From Thermoplasmata archaeon (GTDB taxonomy: Archaea; Thermoplasmatota; Thermoplasmata; Thermoplasmatales; Thermoplasmataceae): DNA of 35,482 bases. Below are positions 1,310 to 25,833 of this stretch, piece by piece. The position numbers were made by a program, and so were the translations under genes. Numbering within the stretch: position 1 is the stretch's first letter; each line of letters starts with the position of its first letter. Location: NCBI GenBank assembly GCA_021794355.1, contig JAJYRA010000054.1:1-35482 (forward strand), given 5' to 3'. Below the pieces are notes generated by a model. That model searched no databases, had not been told where the DNA came from, and saw only the letters and a program-made list of their open reading frames with translations.

Positions 1310-1702
1310 TTAACTACCATGAGAAGGAGAAATTAAGGGTGTAAACTTAAGCACAGCTGAAACTACTATAATCAGGAATACTTGAAGTATCGCAACTACA
1401 ACTATATTTGTGAAACCTCTCAGATAAAGATACACTTCTATCTCCGATAACATTGCAAAGAATACGGTAAATAGTGAAATAATATTAACAAACCTCGAAA
1501 ACCCATACCCTCTTTTTTTGCCCCCAAAGAAACCAAGACTGTAAATGAAACCAAGAACAAAAACAGCTATCAAAACAAGAAATAGGACCATGTCTTGCAG
1601 ATTCACATATCTAAAGGAAATAAGAAACTGAGATAGTATTGCAATGACTCCAAGAGCCTGTATAATAGTGTAAAATTTAGTAAAACTGATAACGTTCTTC
1701 AA
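1310..1702 (-). CDS. Small four-helix membrane protein, candidate immunity protein
   Basis: This 130-residue protein is mostly hydrophobic. Four probable membrane segments lie at about residues 8-30, 37-60, 70-93 and 97-120, with a basic GGKKRGYGFSR loop after the second. No enzyme motif is visible. The start lies 10 bp after the stop of the secreted Cys-rich precursor at 1713-2645 on the same strand, so the two are almost certainly co-transcribed and possibly translationally coupled. A small polytopic protein encoded directly downstream of a secreted antimicrobial-like peptide is the usual position and shape for a self-immunity factor. That role is inferred from context; I recognise no family. 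Confidence 0.65.
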   Translation of the reverse strand: MKNVISFTKFYTIIQALGVIAILSQFLISFRYVNLQDMVLFLVLIAVFVLGFIYSLGFFGGKKRGYGFSRFVNIISLFTVFFAMLSEIEVYLYLRGFTNIVVVAILQVFLIIVVSAVLKFTPLISPSHGS

Positions 1703-1712
1703 ATATGATCAC

Positions 1713-2645
1713 CTAGCACGCGTAATTTATCGCAATAACTTCAACAATTGGTAAAGCATTAACTGTTATGAAGAATAGAGCACAAGGTATGCCAAAACCA
1801 ACCCCTGTAAAGCACGCAGATGCTTCTGAAACTAATACTGCACCTGCAATACCCAAAGATACCAGCTCTGCTATGCAAGCGGCGAGATTCCCATCGATAA
1901 GGTATACTCCTGTTATATCAATCTTTTGCTTAAGAATATGAACAGGGGTAAGTTTGATAAAAGATGTCAAAGATTGTGCTGTAAGCAAGTAGTAGATACC
2001 AAGAGTTGTCATTGTTTTATTTCCGGATTCCATATATTTTGTAGCCAATGAGTATATTCCGGATTGTATACTCAAAATCTGACCTTTTAGGTTAGAACTG
2101 AAGTTAGTTACTAGCAGATCTCCTAGATGTAAATCTTTACCAAGATTGGGCTGAAAAGCAATTGCCATCATTGATAAACTTTCATTTCCATATTGTGAAC
2201 CACGGTTAATTAGCACGTCTGTCATTTTTAATCCAAAAAGTGAGGTATTTGTAGTATATGTCAAAGTTTTCATGGTATAATTTCCTATTTTTCCGTAACT
2301 ATATGCCAATTTTACTCCAGACTTATGGTATTCCTTAACTCCAAAAATTTGAATTACTGGTTTAGATACAGAGACTTGATTTACGCCGTTACTACCGCTG
2401 CCTTCTATATTGGGATTACTGAGATAGCCACCCTTAGAAACTATATATTCACCGATGAAATTTGTTTGTCCAACTTTTACATCCATGAATCCATTTCCGG
2501 TAGCAATTGAATCACTTAAAACATTATGCTCGGAAGAATTGGTAGAACTCACGCCAATGTACATTCCGCTCGAATACACACTAAAAGCAAATATCGCTAT
2601 TCCAACAACCAAAAAGAGTGTCATAACTTTTATTCTTCCTTTCAC
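1713..2645 (-). CDS. Secreted precursor with halocin C8-like Cys-rich hydrophobic C-terminus
   Basis: The 310-residue protein begins with a GTG start (an ATG seven codons in is an alternative). A signal or anchor helix lies at about residues 8-27, followed by a long polar region rich in Ser, Asn and Gly. All four cysteines sit in the last 54 residues (C257, C278, C288, C310), inside a Gly/Ala/Val-rich hydrophobic segment, and the last residue is Cys. IDITG precedes this segment at 242-246. As I recall them, mature halocin C8 starts DIDITG, is hydrophobic and Cys-rich, and ends in Cys, although it has ten cysteines. The architecture also resembles SdpC-type precursors, which release a hydrophobic disulfide peptide. 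A membrane protein gene follows 10 bp downstream. Antimicrobial function is inference; an ordinary surface protein is the alternative. Confidence 0.6.
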   Translation of the reverse strand: MKGRIKVMTLFLVVGIAIFAFSVYSSGMYIGVSSTNSSEHNVLSDSIATGNGFMDVKVGQTNFIGEYIVSKGGYLSNPNIEGSGSNGVNQVSVSKPVIQIFGVKEYHKSGVKLAYSYGKIGNYTMKTLTYTTNTSLFGLKMTDVLINRGSQYGNESLSMMAIAFQPNLGKDLHLGDLLVTNFSSNLKGQILSIQSGIYSLATKYMESGNKTMTTLGIYYLLTAQSLTSFIKLTPVHILKQKIDITGVYLIDGNLAACIAELVSLGIAGAVLVSEASACFTGVGFGIPCALFFITVNALPIVEVIAINYAC

Positions 2646-2815: not shown

Positions 2816-2848
2816 ACTTTATAATATAGATTGCAATATTATTGCAAT
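2816..2848 (+). promoter_or_regulatory. TATA box plus two ATTGCAAT operator-like palindromes
   Basis: CTTTATAATATAG (2816-2828) is a good TATA element about 25 bp before the ATG at 2849. Immediately downstream the self-complementary octamer ATTGCAAT occurs twice, at 2830-2837 and 2841-2848. The copies are 11 bp apart, about one helical turn, and the second abuts the start codon. Placement across the expected transcription start suggests a repressor site controlling transposition, possibly bound by the DUF2080 protein itself. That last step is inference. Confidence 0.5.
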
Positions 2849-3028
2849 ATGAAAAAGAAGACTGCCGAAAAACCGATGAATATCAAGATGGAGGGATACG
2901 AGGTTATAGAGAAGGTTGCAACACAGCATGCCACTTCAGCCAAGGTACTTGTGCCAAAGCACTGGATAGGGAAGAAGGTAAGGGCTGTGAGGATTGATCC
3001 AGAAAGTGAAGAGAAGAAAGAAGACTGA
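2849..3028 (+). CDS. DUF2080-type transposon-associated small protein
   Basis: The protein has 59 residues from the ATG at 2849; a TTG six codons earlier is less likely because it falls inside the operator-like repeats. The sequence is strongly basic and contains the hallmark block ATSAKVLVPKHWIGKKVRAVRI (described here by its core VLVPKHWIGKKV, about residues 32-43). That block is typical of the short archaeal proteins annotated as DUF2080 or transposon-encoded. The fold looks like a small beta-rich, SpoVT/AbrB-like DNA binder, which is inference. The stop overlaps the transposase ATG by one base (TGATG), so the two are translationally coupled. Confidence 0.8.
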   Translation: MKKKTAEKPMNIKMEGYEVIEKVATQHATSAKVLVPKHWIGKKVRAVRIDPESEEKKED

Positions 3029-4848: not shown

Positions 4849-5394
4849 AATGAGCACAAAAATGCCATTGAGTATATTCCAAAAGAAAACATTGGAATTG
4901 AAAAAAATGGCAGGTAATATAACACTTTAGTGCCATGGAACAAGGACTTAACACACACTTTCTCGTGTCGTGAACAGCTGCTTATGTACCAAAGTGGTCT
5001 GACCACTTAGGGGATCAGTTGTGAAGGTATATACGAATTGTATCAAAAACGAAATCATAACTTGACAAAATGTAAGTTTTGGTAAGTTATAATTTAAACA
5101 AGTATGTCATCAAAATTTATTGCATAAACGGGAACTTTTTTGCCCAGTTTTCGGAAAGCCTCTTTTCAAGAAGATGGAAAGAATGGATGGAGATATAGAG
5201 ACATTGTGCGAGTATTCACAGTTCTTAAATCTAAAGATTTCCTCTTCCTGAGATGGTATCAATTGTACCGTATCTATGTTATACTAAATGAATCTCTTAT
5301 AGGAAAAACACAATCAGAAGCGCCTGTAATCTCAACTGGCGGCAACGATAAGTGGAGGACTTTGATACAGAAAGCCTCATTAATATGCTTGGAA
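4849..5394. other. Intergenic region without a convincing gene
   Basis: A 26-codon frame follows hicA directly (4850-4930) but looks like chance. A perfect hairpin, AAGTGGT-CTG-ACCACTT, lies at 4992-5008. A TTG-initiated 87-codon plus-strand frame (5140-5403) has no recognisable motif or clear translation signal, and I do not call it a gene. The DNA is AT-rich and probably carries decayed accessory sequence. Confidence 0.4.
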
Positions 5395-5595
5395 TCAATC
5401 TAAATGCCGTTCTCTCTGCCTAATCTTTTCATTGATCATAAACGAACCCCCGTTCTGGAATGATCCATTTTTATCCTTATATCTCTTGAAATCACTAGGC
5501 ACGTTCTCTTTTTTGACTGGCATTACTATATGATTTGCACCTATTATTGCTTTTTTAAAATGCAAAACTGGGTAATTCTCAATTCTTCTAGCCAT
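5395..5595 (-). CDS. Short basic hypothetical protein, third gene of an unknown operon
   Basis: Sixty-six residues from the ATG at 5595; a GTG at 5610 would add five. The protein is basic and soluble with no recognised motif; a stretch IIGANHIVMPVKKENVP lies near the middle. Its start overlaps the end of the preceding minus-strand gene by 8 bp, so it is probably translated from the same message. No Shine-Dalgarno of the GGTGA type is visible. It could also be the remnant of a larger protein. It is kept as a gene mainly because of its position. Confidence 0.45.
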   Translation of the reverse strand: MARRIENYPVLHFKKAIIGANHIVMPVKKENVPSDFKRYKDKNGSFQNGGSFMINEKIRQRERHLD

Positions 5596-6922: not shown

Positions 6923-8462
6923 GTAACTGGTCAGTCTAAAGTGCATAGTATGTTTAGAAATAGCGTGTAATGAACCGAAAGATCCTTATATAATGAATAC
7001 ATTATATTAATAGAATGATTAAACTTTGTGCAGAAACACCTAGAGATCAGGATATGATCGACAAATTCCAGAGAGCTTATAACAATTTGAAGAAGATCGT
7101 TGATAGACTGCAGGAGGAGAATGAAAAGCTCAAGAAAGAGCTTGACGAGTATAAGAAAAGACATCCAGCCAATATTGGTATTAAGAATGGAAAACCTTAC
7201 GTGATAACGACAGAGGAAAATAAATCACATGAAGATGTTAACAATATTGATGCTAATACTGCAAACAAAGAGGAAAAAAGAAAACCGGGAGCACAGAAGA
7301 ATCACAAGGGGCATTATAGAATCAGGAAGAAGATAACAGATAGAATAAATGTCCATTCTACCGATTCAATCTGTCCTTCATGCTCATCAACACTTGTAAG
7401 AAGAGGAACAAGGAAGAGGGTTATTGAAGATATCCCTGAGATATCTCCAGTGACACAATACCGCATTGACAAGATGTACTGCAATAAATGCAGGAAGATG
7501 TATGAACCGGAAGTAACAGATGCACTTCCCAAGGCAACGTTCTCATTGAGAACCATGCTAACGGTTGCATACTTCCGCATAGGCATGAGGATGAGTATTG
7601 AGAATGTGCAGACAACCATGGATGGTGTATTCGGAATCGTGATGTCAGAGGGTGAGGTTCAGAACATACTGTCACAGCTATCTGACAGTCTTGGGGAAGA
7701 GTATGAAAAGATTCTTTCCCTCATACGTGAAGCAGTAAGCAGGAACATGGATTCCACCACATACCCCATCAACGGAATAACATACAACCTGTGGACATTC
7801 CTCACAAAGACAGAATCCATATTCATCATATCAAGAAGCAACGGTCATGTTGTTCCATTAACTGTACTGGGAGATCATAAAGGCACAGACATCCATGACA
7901 GATACAGTGCATTCGAAACCTTTGCAGAAAAGACAGGCAATGATCAGCAGTACTGCTGGTCACACATCAACTGTGATGGAAAGGAACTGGAAGAGTTCTA
8001 TGGAGAGGAGGGTGGAAGAATCAAGAGGGCATTGAAGAAGATCCACAATAAAGGAAAGGCATTCAAGGGACATGGAACGATGGAAGATGTGGATAAACTG
8101 TATCAAGAACTGGTATTTCTCCTTGATACGGATTATGAACACCTGAAATGCAGGAATTTTGTTAAGAATCTCCTGAGAAGAAAGAAAGAATGGCTCTTCG
8201 CATATGTCATGAACCCGGAGGTGGAATCCACAAACAACAGGGCAGAAAGAGCATTGAGACCTTCTGTTATATATAGAAAGGTTTCAGGTGGATCACGAAC
8301 AGAAAGGGGTGCCGATATATACGCAAGATTATCATCCATATATTACACATCAAAGCTCAGGAAAAACAGTTTCATAAAGGATACACCAACGGTCATAGTG
8401 AGAAAGAAAGGGAATCCAAAACCTGGATGATAAGTGTCATGCACTCAAGACTGACCAGTTAC
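6923..8462 (+). mobile_element. Complete IS66-family element (single-ORF, ISBst12-like)
   Basis: The 1,540-bp element is bounded by 24-bp terminal inverted repeats. Left 6923-6946 begins GTAACTGGTCAGTCT; right 8439-8462 is its reverse complement with two mismatches. A perfect 8-bp duplication flanks both ends. It holds one transposase gene and no accessory tnpA/tnpB genes, like the ISBst12 subgroup. All parts look intact, so it may be active. The right end lies directly beside the TATA region of the XPB helicase gene. A relic of a related element's 3' end lies at 35213-35331. Confidence 0.95.
7015..8430 (+). CDS. IS66-family transposase
   Basis: The 471-residue protein has the family's layout. 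An N-terminal coiled coil is at about residues 20-50 (LQEENEKLKKELDEYKK). A CxxC...CxxC zinc ribbon lies at about residues 121-162 (CPSC ... CNKC). The catalytic domain includes the first Asp in RNMDSTTYPING (about residue 245), and a CWSH block follows at about residues 312-315. The C-terminal NNRAERALRP signature at about residues 407-416 holds the catalytic Glu. The length and ends look intact with no frameshift. The enzyme cuts and joins the element ends at 6923 and 8462. Start choice is uncertain within a few codons, but the ATG at 7015 sits close to a TATA-like region. Confidence 0.93.
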   Translation: MIKLCAETPRDQDMIDKFQRAYNNLKKIVDRLQEENEKLKKELDEYKKRHPANIGIKNGKPYVITTEENKSHEDVNNIDANTANKEEKRKPGAQKNHKGHYRIRKKITDRINVHSTDSICPSCSSTLVRRGTRKRVIEDIPEISPVTQYRIDKMYCNKCRKMYEPEVTDALPKATFSLRTMLTVAYFRIGMRMSIENVQTTMDGVFGIVMSEGEVQNILSQLSDSLGEEYEKILSLIREAVSRNMDSTTYPINGITYNLWTFLTKTESIFIISRSNGHVVPLTVLGDHKGTDIHDRYSAFETFAEKTGNDQQYCWSHINCDGKELEEFYGEEGGRIKRALKKIHNKGKAFKGHGTMEDVDKLYQELVFLLDTDYEHLKCRNFVKNLLRRKKEWLFAYVMNPEVESTNNRAERALRPSVIYRKVSGGSRTERGADIYARLSSIYYTSKLRKNSFIKDTPTVIVRKKGNPKPG

Positions 8463-19352: not shown

Positions 19353-19447
19353 CCTATTTGTGGAAATTATATTTATTCATTAGCTGGCGCAATGTTTTCA
19401 CACTTCGTTCCAAAAGATTAATAATCTTTTCCAGTTTACATACTATA

Positions 19448-22441
19448 ATGCCTGAAATAAACGCCAAATTCATAGCTGTCATAATAGTTGCAGCCGTAAT
19501 TATTGGCACAGGGTTGTCATTTTTCCACGAAACCTATAATGCAAAACCCTATGAAAAAATCAAGATACCTCCACTCTTTTCAAATGAAGAAAGAATGTTT
19601 TCCTTCAGCCAGAAAGGCTCCTCCTTCAGTCCCATCGGGAATAGCTCCATAACGCTGAAGGGTTATGTAACCATCAAAAACGGCGGAGCACTGAATGGAC
19701 CCATTTCCATATATGATTTTCCATGGGTTGTGCATACGAATCTGGTCAACGGATTTTATTCCGTAACTCTTCTTCAATATGGTGCATTCACCATAGGCTA
19801 TAAGGCAAGTGGATATAACACCGGTTTTTCCAAATTCACCATCCTATCAGGGTCCACTCAATGGGCCAATGTCACCGTGACTCGAGCAACTTTCTACACA
19901 ATTAGCGGTGAAACACTGAATCTCTCACACAGCAGTGTTCCCCTTGTAAATCTAAGTTTTCCGTCATTCTTTGGTGTTTACAACGGCTCTTCAAACATTA
20001 ATGCAAAGTATAACGTAACCCTGCAAAATGGGACGTATGTTGCTTTCACAATAAAACAAAATTACTACCAAACTCCAAAGCCTGAATTTTTTAACGTCAC
20101 TGGAAAAGGTATAACTGGCTTGAACTTTTTGATGAACAGAACAAAAAATGCTTCATACTTCGTTTCAGGATATGTTCATAATCAGCTGGGAAATCCGGTG
20201 GGAGGAGTAAAAGTTACATCCTATTCCATCTTGAATGGTACACCTTTCAGTTCCTCGGTCACGGATTCCCACGGTTTATATACTGTACTGGCCCCTCCCG
20301 GATACGATTACCTGGAAACACCCTTCACATCGGCTTATATGCCGGCAAAGACCGGAGGGTTTAAGGTAAATTCAACGGTAACCAACAGAGACATTACCCT
20401 TCAGGCCATTGATCCATTTGTGGCATTTCACTCCACAAAGGTGGAAAACGGTACTAAACCCCTTCCCTCTTTCATGCTTCCGAAAGCCAGGGCATTCCTT
20501 TCAAGAAACCTCACCTCCACGGGATACTCGAAAGGATTCTATAGCTCCGGATCCATTGGTATTCAACTTAAGAATATCTTTTACCCCTCATCACCACAGA
20601 ACAGTAATCTTATGAAAACTTTCACAATAATGGTAATGGGAGATTTCAACGGTTCCATATACTATACTCAATCAATAGTGGGTGGAACAGGTCTCGTATC
20701 AATCCCAATGCATTACCAAGGAAGTTACCCGCTCTTGATTTATGTTCCTGGGTTTAACCTCTCCGATTATAAGTTTAATTATAAGGCCAATAATTCAAGT
20801 GGACCCTTTGCTCACATAAATTTAACTCCATTACCAGGTCAATATTTTACTGTTAACGGTCAGGCATTAAACCTAATCAATTCGGCTCCTCAGCTATACC
20901 CCAATGTAACCCTGTGGGAAAATGGATTACTTGTCAATGAATCAATAGAACAATCAAATAAAGGATTTTTCAGTTTTTACTACTTTTTTGACACCCAGCA
21001 AAAATACAACATTACTTTAACTCTAAACATCTCTCAGGCCGGGTTCAAGAATTATATTCTTTCAAAACAGATAGGTACCAGTACCATAAATAGATTCAGG
21101 AATATCTCCAATATAAAAGCGGAAATGGCTCCACTGTCAACCATTGGGAATGGTTTTAACAATATTTATCTAAATATACCTGGATACAGCAAGCACACCA
21201 TTCAGAATAAACTGCTAAACGGTGTATCCTCAAATAAATATAATTTTGGCAAACAAGAAAACATTTTACAATTAAGTACAAAATCTAACGGCGACCAGTT
21301 TGTTGCATACACGGAATTAAATGGTGTTTTATATTCCAGGGTGGTGAACCCTGTTAATGGTTCCATAACTCTTAATACAACCTTTACAACATTCCTGAAT
21401 ATCACCGTTATAGGACAATTCTCGAAGTCTTTTAACATTGAGTTTACACCTTCATTTAAACCCATCAAATCTGTATCCCTGATCACCAGGAGGACAAGTG
21501 AAGTAAATATTACAATGGTAAATATGTTAAATTACACTGTAGATAAGAGATTCGGAAAGCAATATGGTGTGAACTTTGATCATCAGGTTCCATGGGGAAA
21601 CCTTTTCATAAACAGTTCATCATCTGCCATACCAATGAAAGCCTTAGATCACGGAAATTACCATGCAAACACCTCTGTAATTTTTCAACTGCCTCAGGGC
21701 AATTACAACTTCAGTTTTACCGGCAACTCCTTTGTAACTGGAAATTTGAGATTTACTAAAAATAATATTACGAACACAAGGGAAAATCTAAACATTTCAG
21801 AATATGGATTTGTAATTCCCATTAAGAGTAAGGTATCTCTCACATACACTCTAAAGATTTTAGCCAATGGTAAACAGAACACCATATTTCAGGGTAATTA
21901 TAATTACGTTACCGCTTCCAGTGGAATTGTCCTCGATCTATTTCCGGAGAACGTAAATGGCAATTCCTTAGGTGGAATGTATTATGAGATTAATGTGGAT
22001 AAGAGCTACTTCAATTCCCCAACATTCAGTATTACAAAGAATAAACCATATGATATACAGTATATCAACGTCTCCAGTAAACAGATCACTGCAACATTTG
22101 ACGAAACTGGATCCAGCAGTGCAAACGGGACATATCTATGGAATAATTCTGTAGAACTTGGTTCGCAGTCAGGTATTATTAAGAATATAACTGTTAAAAC
22201 CAACAATGGACAAATATATAATTTGACGAAATATTCCACTCTTGTCATTGATAATAAAAACATAGAAACCCTGAGTGCGAATGGAAAAGAATTTAATTAC
22301 CTCAACTATTCATTCACCAGTGGGGGTCATCTCAATATGCGTATCTATCTTGGGGGGAAGATTTTAACAACTTACACTTTCTTCAATGTTTATTTTGGGA
22401 TATTAAACGTTAATTATACAAATCAAAATGGGGTTGAGTAA
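19448..22441 (+). CDS. Large exported surface protein with carboxypeptidase-regulatory-like repeats
   Basis: The start is ATG 19448 (997 residues); a longer TTG frame from 19358 adds no plausible sequence. One N-terminal helix (FIAVIIVAAVIIGTGLSFF, residues 8-26) anchors or exports it, and the rest is extracellular. It is rich in Asn, Ser, Thr, Gly and N-x-S/T sequons. Several beta-sandwich units resemble carboxypeptidase-regulatory/CnaB folds: ISGETLNL, VSGYVHNQLGNPVGGVKVTS with VTDSHGLYTVLAPPG, and VNGQALNL. There is no C-terminal membrane helix and no enzyme motif. It heads a tight operon with MoxR and DUF58 genes, so its folding or display may depend on them (inference). Confidence 0.85.
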   Translation: MPEINAKFIAVIIVAAVIIGTGLSFFHETYNAKPYEKIKIPPLFSNEERMFSFSQKGSSFSPIGNSSITLKGYVTIKNGGALNGPISIYDFPWVVHTNLVNGFYSVTLLQYGAFTIGYKASGYNTGFSKFTILSGSTQWANVTVTRATFYTISGETLNLSHSSVPLVNLSFPSFFGVYNGSSNINAKYNVTLQNGTYVAFTIKQNYYQTPKPEFFNVTGKGITGLNFLMNRTKNASYFVSGYVHNQLGNPVGGVKVTSYSILNGTPFSSSVTDSHGLYTVLAPPGYDYLETPFTSAYMPAKTGGFKVNSTVTNRDITLQAIDPFVAFHSTKVENGTKPLPSFMLPKARAFLSRNLTSTGYSKGFYSSGSIGIQLKNIFYPSSPQNSNLMKTFTIMVMGDFNGSIYYTQSIVGGTGLVSIPMHYQGSYPLLIYVPGFNLSDYKFNYKANNSSGPFAHINLTPLPGQYFTVNGQALNLINSAPQLYPNVTLWENGLLVNESIEQSNKGFFSFYYFFDTQQKYNITLTLNISQAGFKNYILSKQIGTSTINRFRNISNIKAEMAPLSTIGNGFNNIYLNIPGYSKHTIQNKLLNGVSSNKYNFGKQENILQLSTKSNGDQFVAYTELNGVLYSRVVNPVNGSITLNTTFTTFLNITVIGQFSKSFNIEFTPSFKPIKSVSLITRRTSEVNITMVNMLNYTVDKRFGKQYGVNFDHQVPWGNLFINSSSSAIPMKALDHGNYHANTSVIFQLPQGNYNFSFTGNSFVTGNLRFTKNNITNTRENLNISEYGFVIPIKSKVSLTYTLKILANGKQNTIFQGNYNYVTASSGIVLDLFPENVNGNSLGGMYYEINVDKSYFNSPTFSITKNKPYDIQYINVSSKQITATFDETGSSSANGTYLWNNSVELGSQSGIIKNITVKTNNGQIYNLTKYSTLVIDNKNIETLSANGKEFNYLNYSFTSGGHLNMRIYLGGKILTTYTFFNVYFGILNVNYTNQNGVE

Positions 22442-22443
22442 AA

Positions 22444-23022
22444 ATGGAAAATGAAAATGGGGATCAGGAAGCAATAAAACAGATACAGGATATGTTAAAT
22501 GGAAATCCGAAAACGAAGAAAAAAAGGGGATTTTTTAGTAAGAGAAAGAGGTCGGCCAACGAGGAAACAAAGATACGTGTAAAAACACTGTTGGATATCC
22601 CCCCTCTTGTAAATGCCAGAAGAAATGTTGGAAACAAGGATATGTTCAAGGCAGCGACCGAGGCAAAAAGAGATGTACAGAAAGACATCGAAAGATATTT
22701 CAACATAAATCTGGGCGGAAATCTTCCGAACATGGCAAGGATATACAAAATTCTTAAGGATAGTGACAGTGACTTGACAGAAGATGTGGTTGTTGATTCA
22801 ATTTCACTAGCCCTTGAAACCGCAATGATAGGAACAAAATCCACCGGTGATCAGCAACTTAAGGAAATGGCATTAAAAAAATACGCCACCTTTCTTATGG
22901 AAACCTACTTACCTGCGGCATATTCAGAGGATAATCAGATAGATGGAGAAAAGCTCATTTCCCAGATAACTGATATATACAATTATCTGGATATAAAGAA
23001 ACTCTATTTTGTGGACGAGTAA
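22444..23022 (+). CDS. Soluble hypothetical protein of the MoxR operon
   Basis: Starting 2 bp after the stop of the surface protein, this 192-residue protein is hydrophilic. It has a very basic early segment (KTKKKRGFFSKRKR, residues 23-36) and a helical remainder. It contains no membrane helix and no catalytic motif. The region ENGDQEAIKQIQDMLNG at the N-terminus is acidic, and the C-terminal half (TYLPAAYSEDNQIDGEKLISQITDIYNYLDIKKLYF) could be a helical bundle. The position suggests an adaptor that links the membrane components to the MoxR ATPase. I recognise no family. Confidence 0.8.
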   Translation: MENENGDQEAIKQIQDMLNGNPKTKKKRGFFSKRKRSANEETKIRVKTLLDIPPLVNARRNVGNKDMFKAATEAKRDVQKDIERYFNINLGGNLPNMARIYKILKDSDSDLTEDVVVDSISLALETAMIGTKSTGDQQLKEMALKKYATFLMETYLPAAYSEDNQIDGEKLISQITDIYNYLDIKKLYFVDE

Positions 23023-23028
23023 AATTTT

Positions 23029-23547
23029 ATGCTCTATGTAACTGTGCCCATGCAATCGTTTCCAATTTCCGTTCCGAAATTCACCCTTACAGAATTCTTT
23101 CTTCAACTGGAAGTCAAGCCATACATTGTGTTCATTTTCCTAGTTCCAGTCTTGATGATATTTTTTTATTTCATCATATTGAAGATTAATACTCACAGGA
23201 GGAAAGTGGATAGTGAGCCCACATTAAAACAGGAGAAAGAAGACTTTAAAATACCCGAAGATTATATAAATACGGAGATGTTGTTTGTGCAAAACAGGGA
23301 TTATGATCATTTTGAAACCAATCTGGAGAATAGTTCAAAGAAAATTACTATTCTTTCCAAGGATTTGAACAGAAAGGCCAGAAAGTATAGGAGAATGAAA
23401 TACAGGATAACCTACACCGCCAGTGAGAGAAAAAAACAGAAACTTTCCAAGGCAATGCAGGAGCAATTTAAGGAAGTGATGCAAATATACGCCAGCATAC
23501 AGAAAGTCACAATTGATCTTGACCTAAAGAAAATAGAGGAGGAATAA
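23029..23547 (+). CDS. Single-pass membrane protein with cytoplasmic coiled coil
   Basis: The 172-residue protein has one strong transmembrane helix at about residues 32-52 (FIFLVPVLMIFFYFIILKI). A long charged C-terminal part rich in Lys, Arg and Glu follows (about residues 70-172) and is likely coiled coil. The short N-terminal part would face outside if the basic residues after the helix stay inside. It lies 6 bp after the previous gene and 1 bp before moxR, so it is part of the same operon. It could anchor the ATPase at the membrane; this is an inference from position. Confidence 0.8.
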   Translation: MLYVTVPMQSFPISVPKFTLTEFFLQLEVKPYIVFIFLVPVLMIFFYFIILKINTHRRKVDSEPTLKQEKEDFKIPEDYINTEMLFVQNRDYDHFETNLENSSKKITILSKDLNRKARKYRRMKYRITYTASERKKQKLSKAMQEQFKEVMQIYASIQKVTIDLDLKKIEEE

Positions 23548-23548
23548 A

Positions 23549-24511
23549 ATGGTAACATTAACAGATACAGAATTAAGAAAGGTGAGAAACACCATAGAAT
23601 TAATAAGTGACGAAATAGGCACTAAGGTGGTGGGTTCTAAGGAAATTGTAAAATTCATGTTTGTTGCCCTAATCAGCAATAATCACGTATTGATGGAAGG
23701 AGTACCCGGGTTGGCAAAAACAATGCTGGCCAGTGAATTTTCATCTCATTTGAAGGCACTATTCAGGAGGGTTCAGTTTACGCCAGATATGTTGCCATCA
23801 GACATAACAGGTAATATGGTCTTCAATCTGGAATCAAGAAAACTTGAATTCAGGGAAGGTCCTGTATTTACCAATGTTCTACTGGCTGATGAGATAAATA
23901 GAACTCCAGCAAAGGTTCAATCCGCACTTCTGGAGGCCATGGAAGAAAGACAAGTCTCCGTTGGGGGGGTAACTCATCAGCTACCGATGCCTTTCATCGT
24001 GATCGCCACTCAGAACCCCATAGAGCAGGAGGGAACGTTTCCCATTGCAGAAGCTCTTATGGACAGGTTTCTTTTCAGGTTAATTCTCACATATCCTTCC
24101 AGAGATGCAGAGGTCCAAATACTGAATAGGTCTTACAGGAAGGCCCAAACACAGACCTACATGGACGTGGATCTCATATTGAAACTCAGGGATGAGGTAT
24201 ATGATGTGTTTGTATCACAGCCAATCAAGGAATACATGGTTGATCTGATGCGGAAAACCAGGGAGAGCAAGAAGGTTTACGTTGGTGCCAGCCCGAGAAC
24301 GACCGCAAAACTTCTGCTTGCATCTAAGGCATGTGCCCTGATCCACGGAAGAAACTTTGTCATTCCTGAAGACGTATTCTATATCTCCAAGAACCTCTTG
24401 AATCATAGGCTCATTTTGAGGCCAGAGGCAATGCTTGACGAGTCTGATGTGGGTACGGATGTTGCTTTCAAGGTGATAGAAGAGATAATTTCTGAGGTGC
24501 CTGCTCCTTAA
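23549..24511 (+). CDS. MoxR-type AAA+ ATPase
   Basis: The 320-residue protein contains all MoxR landmarks: Walker A GVPGLAKT (51-58), Walker B LLADEIN (D114, E115), sensor 1 in VIATQNPIEQEGTFPIAEA (N156), and an arginine-finger region MDRF. A C-terminal lid follows (about 230-315), with the sensor 2 arginine in GASPRTTAKLLLASKA. MoxR proteins are chaperone-like ATPases that work with VWA-domain partners, often to assemble or activate complexes. The stop TAA shares one base with the DUF58 start (TAATG). The substrate may be the surface protein encoded upstream (inference). Confidence 0.95.
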   Translation: MVTLTDTELRKVRNTIELISDEIGTKVVGSKEIVKFMFVALISNNHVLMEGVPGLAKTMLASEFSSHLKALFRRVQFTPDMLPSDITGNMVFNLESRKLEFREGPVFTNVLLADEINRTPAKVQSALLEAMEERQVSVGGVTHQLPMPFIVIATQNPIEQEGTFPIAEALMDRFLFRLILTYPSRDAEVQILNRSYRKAQTQTYMDVDLILKLRDEVYDVFVSQPIKEYMVDLMRKTRESKKVYVGASPRTTAKLLLASKACALIHGRNFVIPEDVFYISKNLLNHRLILRPEAMLDESDVGTDVAFKVIEEIISEVPAP

Positions 24512-25833
24512 TGATAAAAAAAAGAGCTTACAGCATTCTGGCCATACTTACCATAGGGTTGCTTGAGTCATTCATTTACAACCTATACGGATACCAGATG
24601 CTGACATTCTTTTTTCTTACGGGTATTTTCATAGTATGCACGGACCTCTGGACACTCAACCACGGTACATTCAAGTCAATGAAATTGCTTGAAGTTAGAA
24701 GAGTTCTGGAAAGGGAGGAGATGAAAAAGGGGGACCACGTAAGGGCAGATCTTTATATTAAGAACAGATCACGAAGAAACTTACAATTCCAATTTTTTGA
24801 CACACTTGCGGATGTTTTTGAATTGAGTGGGGATTACAGTGGCCATATATATCTTAAAAGGGGGGAGACGGTAAAGAAAACATATTATCTCAAACCGGAA
24901 GCCATTGGAAAATACAGCATTGGACCAATCAAAATCATATGCACGGATTCCCTAGGTCTTGGGTTCATAAAGTTTGTTGCTGATCAGGTGGACATGGCCA
25001 GAATTGGGCCTTCCTCCAAGGATACTTTTATGCAGAGGAGTGAAAGGCTAAGTAATGTTCTATTTACAAATGGGCTTCATATCTCAAGAAAGGCAGGCCA
25101 GGGATACAATTTCTTTGGAATAAGGGCATACAATGAGTCTGATGATATGAGGCATGTGGCCTGGAATAGATATAATATCTACGGAAACGATGATCTGTTT
25201 GTCAAGGAATGGGAAGAGGAAAGGCAGGTGGATGCCGTTATAGTTATAGATTACAGCTTAGGTTCCAACGTCGGGAGCAGCAAATTGAGAATGTTTGATT
25301 TCATGGTAACCAGTGCCATAAATGCCTCATACACCATGCTTAAAAACCAGGATAAGGTTGGTTACATAATATTTTCTTCCGATTATCATATCTATATTAA
25401 ACCATCCTCGAGGAATGAAGCCATAGAAAATCTTCAAAAGAAGGTCTCCGATATCAGGCCATCTGGAACATTCAACATTGGTGACGCCAACAGGTTCATA
25501 AATAAGTGTGTTAAGAAAAATGCCCTCGTATTTATGATCATATCGCCTTTTTCAGGAAAAAGTATTGAGGGCATCCTTCCCAAGGACCTGAGGATGGAAA
25601 AGCAGGAATACCTGTATATTTTAAACCCTCACGGTTTCTATGAGATACATGATACGGAAACCATTGGTATCTTTGGAAATGCCCTGATCACCAATGAAAA
25701 TAAGATTTTGGACGCAAACGTTAAATTTTATCGCAGATTTGGAATAGTGGCAAGAAACGTATCAGGGGAAAGGGTTCTTGTATCCCTGCTTTCAGATTAT
25801 GTGAATGGTAGGGCGACAAACAGGGGTGCATGA
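24511..25833 (+). CDS. DUF58 protein with VWA-like domain, MoxR partner
   Basis: The 440-residue protein has two N-terminal membrane helices (about residues 7-24 and 30-48), then a beta-sandwich region. The DUF58 signature GIRAYNESDDMRHVAWNRYN follows at about residues 205-224. Downstream, DAVIVIDYSLGSN (about residues 244-256) begins a von Willebrand A-like fold with a D-x-S metal-site motif. DUF58 genes are nearly always next to moxR. The start overlaps the moxR stop by one base and its own stop overlaps the next gene's ATG by 4 bp, so production of the set is coupled. Confidence 0.93.
   Translation: MIKKRAYSILAILTIGLLESFIYNLYGYQMLTFFFLTGIFIVCTDLWTLNHGTFKSMKLLEVRRVLEREEMKKGDHVRADLYIKNRSRRNLQFQFFDTLADVFELSGDYSGHIYLKRGETVKKTYYLKPEAIGKYSIGPIKIICTDSLGLGFIKFVADQVDMARIGPSSKDTFMQRSERLSNVLFTNGLHISRKAGQGYNFFGIRAYNESDDMRHVAWNRYNIYGNDDLFVKEWEEERQVDAVIVIDYSLGSNVGSSKLRMFDFMVTSAINASYTMLKNQDKVGYIIFSSDYHIYIKPSSRNEAIENLQKKVSDIRPSGTFNIGDANRFINKCVKKNALVFMIISPFSGKSIEGILPKDLRMEKQEYLYILNPHGFYEIHDTETIGIFGNALITNENKILDANVKFYRRFGIVARNVSGERVLVSLLSDYVNGRATNRGA

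Follow-up and report, generated by a model that had tools for sequence, protein, structure and literature searches.

An assembled contig of a Thermoplasmata archaeon (JAJYRA010000054.1; its 35,482 nucleotides are here called the window) carries, on its minus strand, a gene for an exported-looking protein with a hydrophobic, cysteine-bearing end, immediately followed by a gene for a small membrane protein. This raises the question of whether the two encode a peptide antimicrobial and its immunity protein and, if so, to which of the known systems they belong. The initial annotation had proposed such an antimicrobial with its own membrane immunity protein and had attached it to halocin C8; the comparative evidence presented here strongly favours the effector/immunity part of that proposal and separates it from the halocin C8 assignment.

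The gene pair of the window

The pair and its parts, all on the minus strand, are as follows:

1713–2645, minus strand: predicted exported precursor of 310 aa (carrier plus payload tail); an ORF with a GTG start that has homologues and belongs to no known family
2571–2642, minus strand: N-terminal hydrophobic helix (residues 2–25), predicted from the model and hydrophobicity to be an export signal or membrane anchor
2106–2354, minus strand: beta-strand domain of the carrier (residues 98–180); AlphaFold model from a 52-row alignment, with block-mean pLDDT of about 74–86 over most of the span
1932–2090, minus strand: helical region of the carrier (residues 186–238), pLDDT about 89–95, duplicated in the cassette copies of relatives
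1908–1922, minus strand: IDITG (residues 242–246), lying at the xIxxTxxxxxxD junction motif of the carrier according to the alignment and the junction listing
1716–1889, minus strand: payload tail (residues 253–310) with Cys257, Cys278, Cys288 and Cys310, delimited by hydropathy, dN and helix prediction
1310–1702, minus strand: four-helix membrane protein of 130 aa with a TTG start, the predicted immunity protein on the basis of position and type pairing

As initially described, the only four cysteines of the precursor (residues 257, 278, 288 and 310) fall within its last 54 residues, with Cys310 as the final residue; if four cysteines were placed at random over 310 residues, all would lie in the last 58 in about 1 in 800 cases. 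The membrane gene, equally as described, starts 10 bp after the precursor stop, and its 130-aa product has four membrane segments by hydropathy count. The payload tail has a mean hydropathy of +1.58 and, in a low-confidence model, is predicted to form helices at residues 252–279, 285–295 and 300–309. The carrier is modelled better, with residues 98–250 mostly at pLDDT 74–95 (52-row alignment), whereas the tail appears as low-confidence helices. Foldseek searches of the PDB with two models returned nothing below E = 0.2, leaving the carrier fold without a significant match; no solved structure is a relative by sequence, and for neither protein of the window did NCBIfam, Pfam, PHROGs or PADLOC yield an acceptable match. 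By reading, the precursor N-terminus (MKGRIKVMTLFLVV) lacks a twin-arginine motif.

The pair is conserved in two related genomes (G010 and G023), where the precursor is 78% and 70% identical and homologous membrane proteins stand behind the same tail type. Within the window clade, which these three members form, dN is 0.03–0.14 for the tail (with dS of 1.6–2.1, near saturation), as against 0.17–0.22 for the carrier and 0.31–0.35 for the membrane protein. Constraint is thus strongest on the tail, weaker on the carrier and weakest on the membrane protein. Because both relatives keep the pair and the tail is its most constrained part, a chance origin of these features can be excluded.

By reading, the locus is flanked (at positions 484–912, 2842–3028 and 7015–8430 of the window) by transposase-like genes or parts of such genes and by a small ORF of transposon-associated appearance; it thus lies in a mobile-element-rich region. 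Farther away (19358–25833) we read a 1027-aa exported-looking protein followed by genes resembling those for a MoxR-type ATPase and a DUF58-type protein.

Relation to halocin C8 and SdpC

Mature halocin C8 starts with DIDITGC, and the IDITG of the window protein had initially been taken as a signature of that family. Ten residues (247–256) stand between IDITG and the first cysteine, and the segment aligns with the loosely conserved carrier motif xIxxTxxxxxxD, which in relatives reads MEINKTLGIAID, MNISETNAMVID or LQVSSTQVQVFD. G010 and G023 lack the Gly of IDITG, and the other relatives lack the motif altogether. Judged from the alignment, its likeness to halocin C8 is a coincidence.

Profile searches, the check that the initial annotation had named, point the same way. 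The curated halocin C8 model TIGR04449 (family cut-off 24 bits) gave no match to the window protein at any reported E-value, and neither this model nor that of SdpC stands among the matches listed for 52 members of the family (the best 25 of 31 families). The same model matches other genes in 11 of the 117 genomes of the order, over cut-off in 5 and with up to 55.6 bits; it scores 52.9 bits with one Thermoplasmatales halocin C8-like protein scanned singly. Its match in the genome that carries the window is another gene, on contig 35, which at 16.9–19.1 bits stays below cut-off. As TIGR04449 works in this order yet misses the window protein, the latter is not a member of halocin C8 by the curated criterion. 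An hhalign comparison with haloarchaeal halocin C8-like proteins gave a probability of ~0.1%, a weak test with only two near-identical halocins; profile-profile comparison also left apart two sets that TIGR04449 links, and for that reason its negatives are weak evidence. The SdpC model TIGR04032 (cut-off 99.2 bits), the other profile initially suggested, was over cut-off in none of the 117 genomes of the order and without a match in the window's own genome, and membership in SdpC was likewise rejected.

A divergent halocin C8 member would share with that family an archaeal exported precursor ending in a hydrophobic, cysteine-containing peptide, and a small membrane ORF directly follows haloarchaeal halocin C8-like genes too. 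Against this stand a model that finds other genes in the same order but is absent from the matches listed for the 52 members scanned, the hhalign result, the missing twin-arginine signal and a tail with two to four cysteines instead of about ten. Nor does the idea of a halocin version with four in place of ten cysteines hold, since four is itself exceptional: exactly two tail cysteines are found in 43 of the 53 members analysed, and the four-cysteine tail of the window is a special form of this two-cysteine plan. Moreover, immunity to halocin C8 has been attributed to HalI, the N-terminal part of its own precursor (PMC11509114), whereas a separate gene is the predicted immunity determinant here. 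We therefore rejected membership in halocin C8, and even a divergent kinship seems barely credible.

The searches also brought up a second, cysteine-rich halocin C8-like set in Thermoplasmatales, with 12–15 cysteines and TIGR04449 scores of up to 55.6 bits. Its loci are L141 3575–4186 (contig 35 of the window's own genome), L142 3181–3801, L143 3044–3685, L144 3427–4128, L147 2983–3624, and L148 2152–2793 and 4144–4785; between one and three small membrane genes stand behind each gene, and several lack an obvious signal peptide. A protein of 293–310 aa with 14 cysteines and without an NCBIfam match (L149 642–1574, L144 1637–2518) adjoins halocin C8-like genes and has two or three small membrane proteins behind it. 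Downstream of haloarchaeal halocin C8-like genes, by about 20–25 bp, lies a 68-aa ORF with hydrophobic segments (L123 1784–1990, L100 1219–1425), possibly an unrecognised immunity partner.

A family of constant carriers, variable tails and matching membrane genes

Homologous pairs, for which the initial annotation had suggested a search in Thermoplasmatales, exist in Ferroplasma and other Thermoplasmata. A single-protein search recovered homologues in 13 of 101 related genomes, a profile search in 16 of the 117 genomes of the order, and 18 of 400 genomes of the class contain them, including the distant G146, G261 and G374 of another family; named records among these are several Thermoplasmata MAGs, Ferroplasmaceae archaeon UBA567 and Ferroplasma acidarmanus Fer1, whose gene is at about 760,445–761,250 of NC_021592. 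At the level of the phylum, 390 genomes drawn for the search added no members beyond those already known in the class. Single-protein scans of genome and viral contigs found no relatives, and profile scans of viral contigs, together with plasmid and phage records, yielded no members; these empty searches give no hint that the family came from a phage or a plasmid.

Members share a common plan, in which a carrier ending in xIxxTxxxxxxD is followed by a hydrophobic tail of ~60 residues with cysteines capping both of its ends. Over the family the mean hydropathy is +1.36 in the tail as against −0.22 in the carrier, and the 53 members have 106 cysteines in 3166 tail residues but 8 in 6514 carrier residues. 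The first tail cysteine comes 5 or 6 residues past the junction Asp in 46 of the 53, a count taken over members whose junction is clear, and the last stands at or near the C-terminus. Even the distant loci L084–L086, from another family of the class, keep the carrier, the Cys-to-Cys hydrophobic tail and the membrane gene behind. Among the 52 members scanned, weak matches to unrelated families (above E = 1e-3) were taken as noise from hydrophobic sequence, with the exception of PKD in L036, and one member matched DUF4013 at E = 3e-4 in a hydrophobic region. The searches placed the protein in no unrelated structural family, and its homologues have lost neither the membrane neighbour nor the cysteines; on these points the initial annotation had made its proposal depend.

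Several relatives depart from this plan. In L036 (7587–8999, from G054) PKD-like surface domains recognised by Pfam extend the N-terminus ahead of the usual carrier end and Cys-to-Cys tail. Several relatives have broken 5' ends: four full-length g18 copies (L025 about 5100–5560, L027 8330–8800, L029 7000–7600 and L030 6400–6860) have an extra A in the same poly-A run, which shifts the carrier out of the reading frame of the signal peptide, and a fifth (L028) is in frame at that run but without a signal peptide. The frameshift may reflect phase variation, slippage or copied decay. The Fer1 copy (L011/L033) has lost its signal peptide and has a transposase gene just ahead, and the near-identical copy L032 is intact. 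Decayed carrier or tail remnants occur at L005/L014 (G006), L006 (G033) and L008 (G026); those of G033 and G026 are nearly identical, surroundings included, even though the two genomes are placed in separate genera. This points to transfer or to a binning error.

A small membrane ORF lies directly behind 49 of the 53 members; to be counted, it had to have at least two membrane segments and to start between −60 and +40 bp relative to the stop. Of 162 other genes with products of at least 200 aa, which served as controls from these loci, 5 had such a neighbour. Starts at −45 to −58 arise because the longest possible ORF was taken. The membrane proteins fall into two size groups, one of about 60–104 aa with two segments and the other of about 119–168 aa with four. 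No gene beyond carrier and membrane gene recurs in more than 3 of the 19 loci compared, and no dedicated processing gene, such as those for SdpA or SdpB, is common to them.

Fifty tails fall into 26 types, and within genomes the median normalised similarity is 0.91 for the last 45 carrier residues and 0.15 for the tails. In the g10 (Ferroplasma-type) and g18 genomes the full-length genes are followed by tandem cassettes (L026, L030, L031, L069, L071 and others), each of which starts inside the carrier (MKTLINS...), with a carrier-profile match that begins near position 38 of 102, and continues through the carrier motif and a new tail into a new small membrane gene. At L030 three cassettes share 187–216 bp with the full-length gene at 94–99%, and the match stops at the carrier/tail junction. 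At separate loci of G105 the carrier DNA is about 93–95% identical and the tails differ, the match again ending at the junction in L066/L068.

The type of tail also predicts the type of membrane protein across genomes, and the carrier does so much less. For cross-genome pairs, tail and membrane-protein similarity correlate with a Mantel r of 0.74 (0 of 5000 permutations as high), although the correlation is firmer than the exact probability, because the permutation treats members as exchangeable despite some recent shared ancestry. The carrier, although joined to the tail, correlates at only 0.27 with it and at 0.26 with the membrane protein. Tails of the form ...FWFLWG..LSQCNW or ...LLTQCNW, for instance, come with matching four-segment proteins in G056 and G104, which belong to different genera. 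Physical linkage of tail and membrane gene alone raises such a correlation, and it is also what is expected of a toxin/immunity unit moving as one.

This covariation bears directly on the alternative raised at the outset, namely an ordinary surface protein with a structural disulfide tail, whose neighbour would then have nothing to do with it. The beta-domain of the carrier is indeed typical of surface proteins; however, with a membrane gene directly behind nearly every member and with tails and membrane proteins varying together throughout the family, we regard this reading as exceedingly improbable.

Somewhat more can be said for antigenic or phase variation of a surface protein, in which the cassettes would vary an exposed or anchoring segment (for virus evasion or adhesion) and the membrane protein would be an assembly partner of each variant. 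Antigenic-variation systems, too, have silent partial copies beside a full-length gene, the poly-A run out of frame at the same place in four g18 copies recalls phase-variable surface genes, and one member (L036) has PKD surface domains. Yet the variable part is a hydrophobic, membrane-prone end rather than a polar domain on the outside, every variant is accompanied by a membrane gene that matches it, and the strong conservation of the tail within the window clade (dN down to 0.03) is the opposite of antigenic drift. On balance such variation is an unlikely account of the family.

Matched types of tail and membrane protein would equally be expected of a ligand and its receptor, so that the pair could serve kin recognition or peptide signalling, the small membrane protein acting as receptor or modulator for a strain-specific ligand, the tail, with no killing involved. 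There is precedent in the proposal that hypervariable archaeal modules, whose membrane proteins are matched to them by type, act in telling self from nonself (PMC8416519). The membrane proteins of the family, however, are of 60–170 residues and consist mostly of membrane helices, and a profile search of that of the window detected no receptor or signalling domain. We hold signalling to be quite unlikely as well.

A predicted peptide toxin with dedicated immunity

From these comparisons, the locus is likely to be one simple member of a polymorphic peptide-toxin/immunity family of acidophilic Thermoplasmata. It probably makes an exported peptide, presumably a membrane-attacking one, along with a membrane protein dedicated to immunity against it. 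We envisage that the precursor would be exported and that its conserved extracellular carrier (beta domain plus helices) would present the ~60-residue hydrophobic C-terminal tail, in which the cysteines at both ends probably form a disulfide tying together two membrane-seeking helices. The tail, either released by cleavage or displayed, would insert into the membrane of related cells lacking the matching protein, like SDP and YIT in Bacillus, and the small membrane protein from the next gene would shield the producer against its own tail type. In Ferroplasma and its relatives, the extra cassettes (carrier piece, tail and membrane gene) would recombine into the carrier, possibly in real time, such that weapon and immunity change together. 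Arrays of this kind are seen in relatives only, the window's own genome having a single locus without a cassette array.

The closest functional parallel is SdpC/YitM of Bacillus subtilis, by analogy of logic and not by homology. SdpC and YitM have the N-terminal three quarters in common, unlike hydrophobic C-terminal toxin domains and a membrane anti-toxin each, and the mature SDP, of 42 residues, collapses the proton motive force (PMC6818787). The archaeal family resembles the SdpC/SdpI and YitM/YitQ pairs in its constant N-terminal part, variable hydrophobic end and predicted type-specific membrane anti-toxin; it differs in that its tails are found in cassette arrays and the putative immunity gene lies directly behind that of the toxin, and, unlike SdpC, it has no SdpA/SdpB-like neighbour among the loci compared. 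Polymorphic toxins (CDI, Rhs and others) have as their hallmark standalone toxin-immunity cassettes, in which one recombination replaces both (PMC3482391). With these the family shares a constant delivery part, a variable C-terminal payload, an adjacent predicted immunity gene and the cassettes themselves; however, the payload here is a short, hydrophobic, Cys-capped peptide and not an enzyme domain, the putative immunity protein is a small membrane protein, and the carrier has only about 250 residues. The VARTIG modules of Thermococcales are likewise hypervariable archaeal modules with variant-linked membrane proteins (PMC8416519), but VARTIG proteins are large, Ig-domain proteins without a hydrophobic peptide tail. 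By these analogies the family would combine the logic of polymorphic toxin-immunity systems with SdpC/YitM-like hydrophobic peptides as the putatively toxic payload.

In the curated families and literature searched, the family is undescribed; the survey by Makarova et al. 2019 lay outside that search, and it reportedly expanded halocin C8 and listed candidates for analogous systems, which may include these genes. Categorical novelty would possibly follow only if hydrophobic-peptide payloads in cassette arrays prove undescribed. As a tentative proposal, for which we would claim rather less than an even chance, the family may represent a new archaeal class of polymorphic toxins, in which a cassette-swapped disulfide hairpin, matched by membrane immunity and perhaps governed by a poly-A switch, would pierce the tetraether membranes of acidophiles.

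Very little is known of how archaea, and acidophiles in particular, combat their own kind. If the reading of the locus as a peptide-toxin/immunity pair is true, it would provide a named carrier family, about 26 toxin/immunity types and cultured Ferroplasma hosts for direct tests of antagonism, and it would show cassette switching, which has been known chiefly for the large enzyme toxins of bacteria, at work in small membrane-active peptides.
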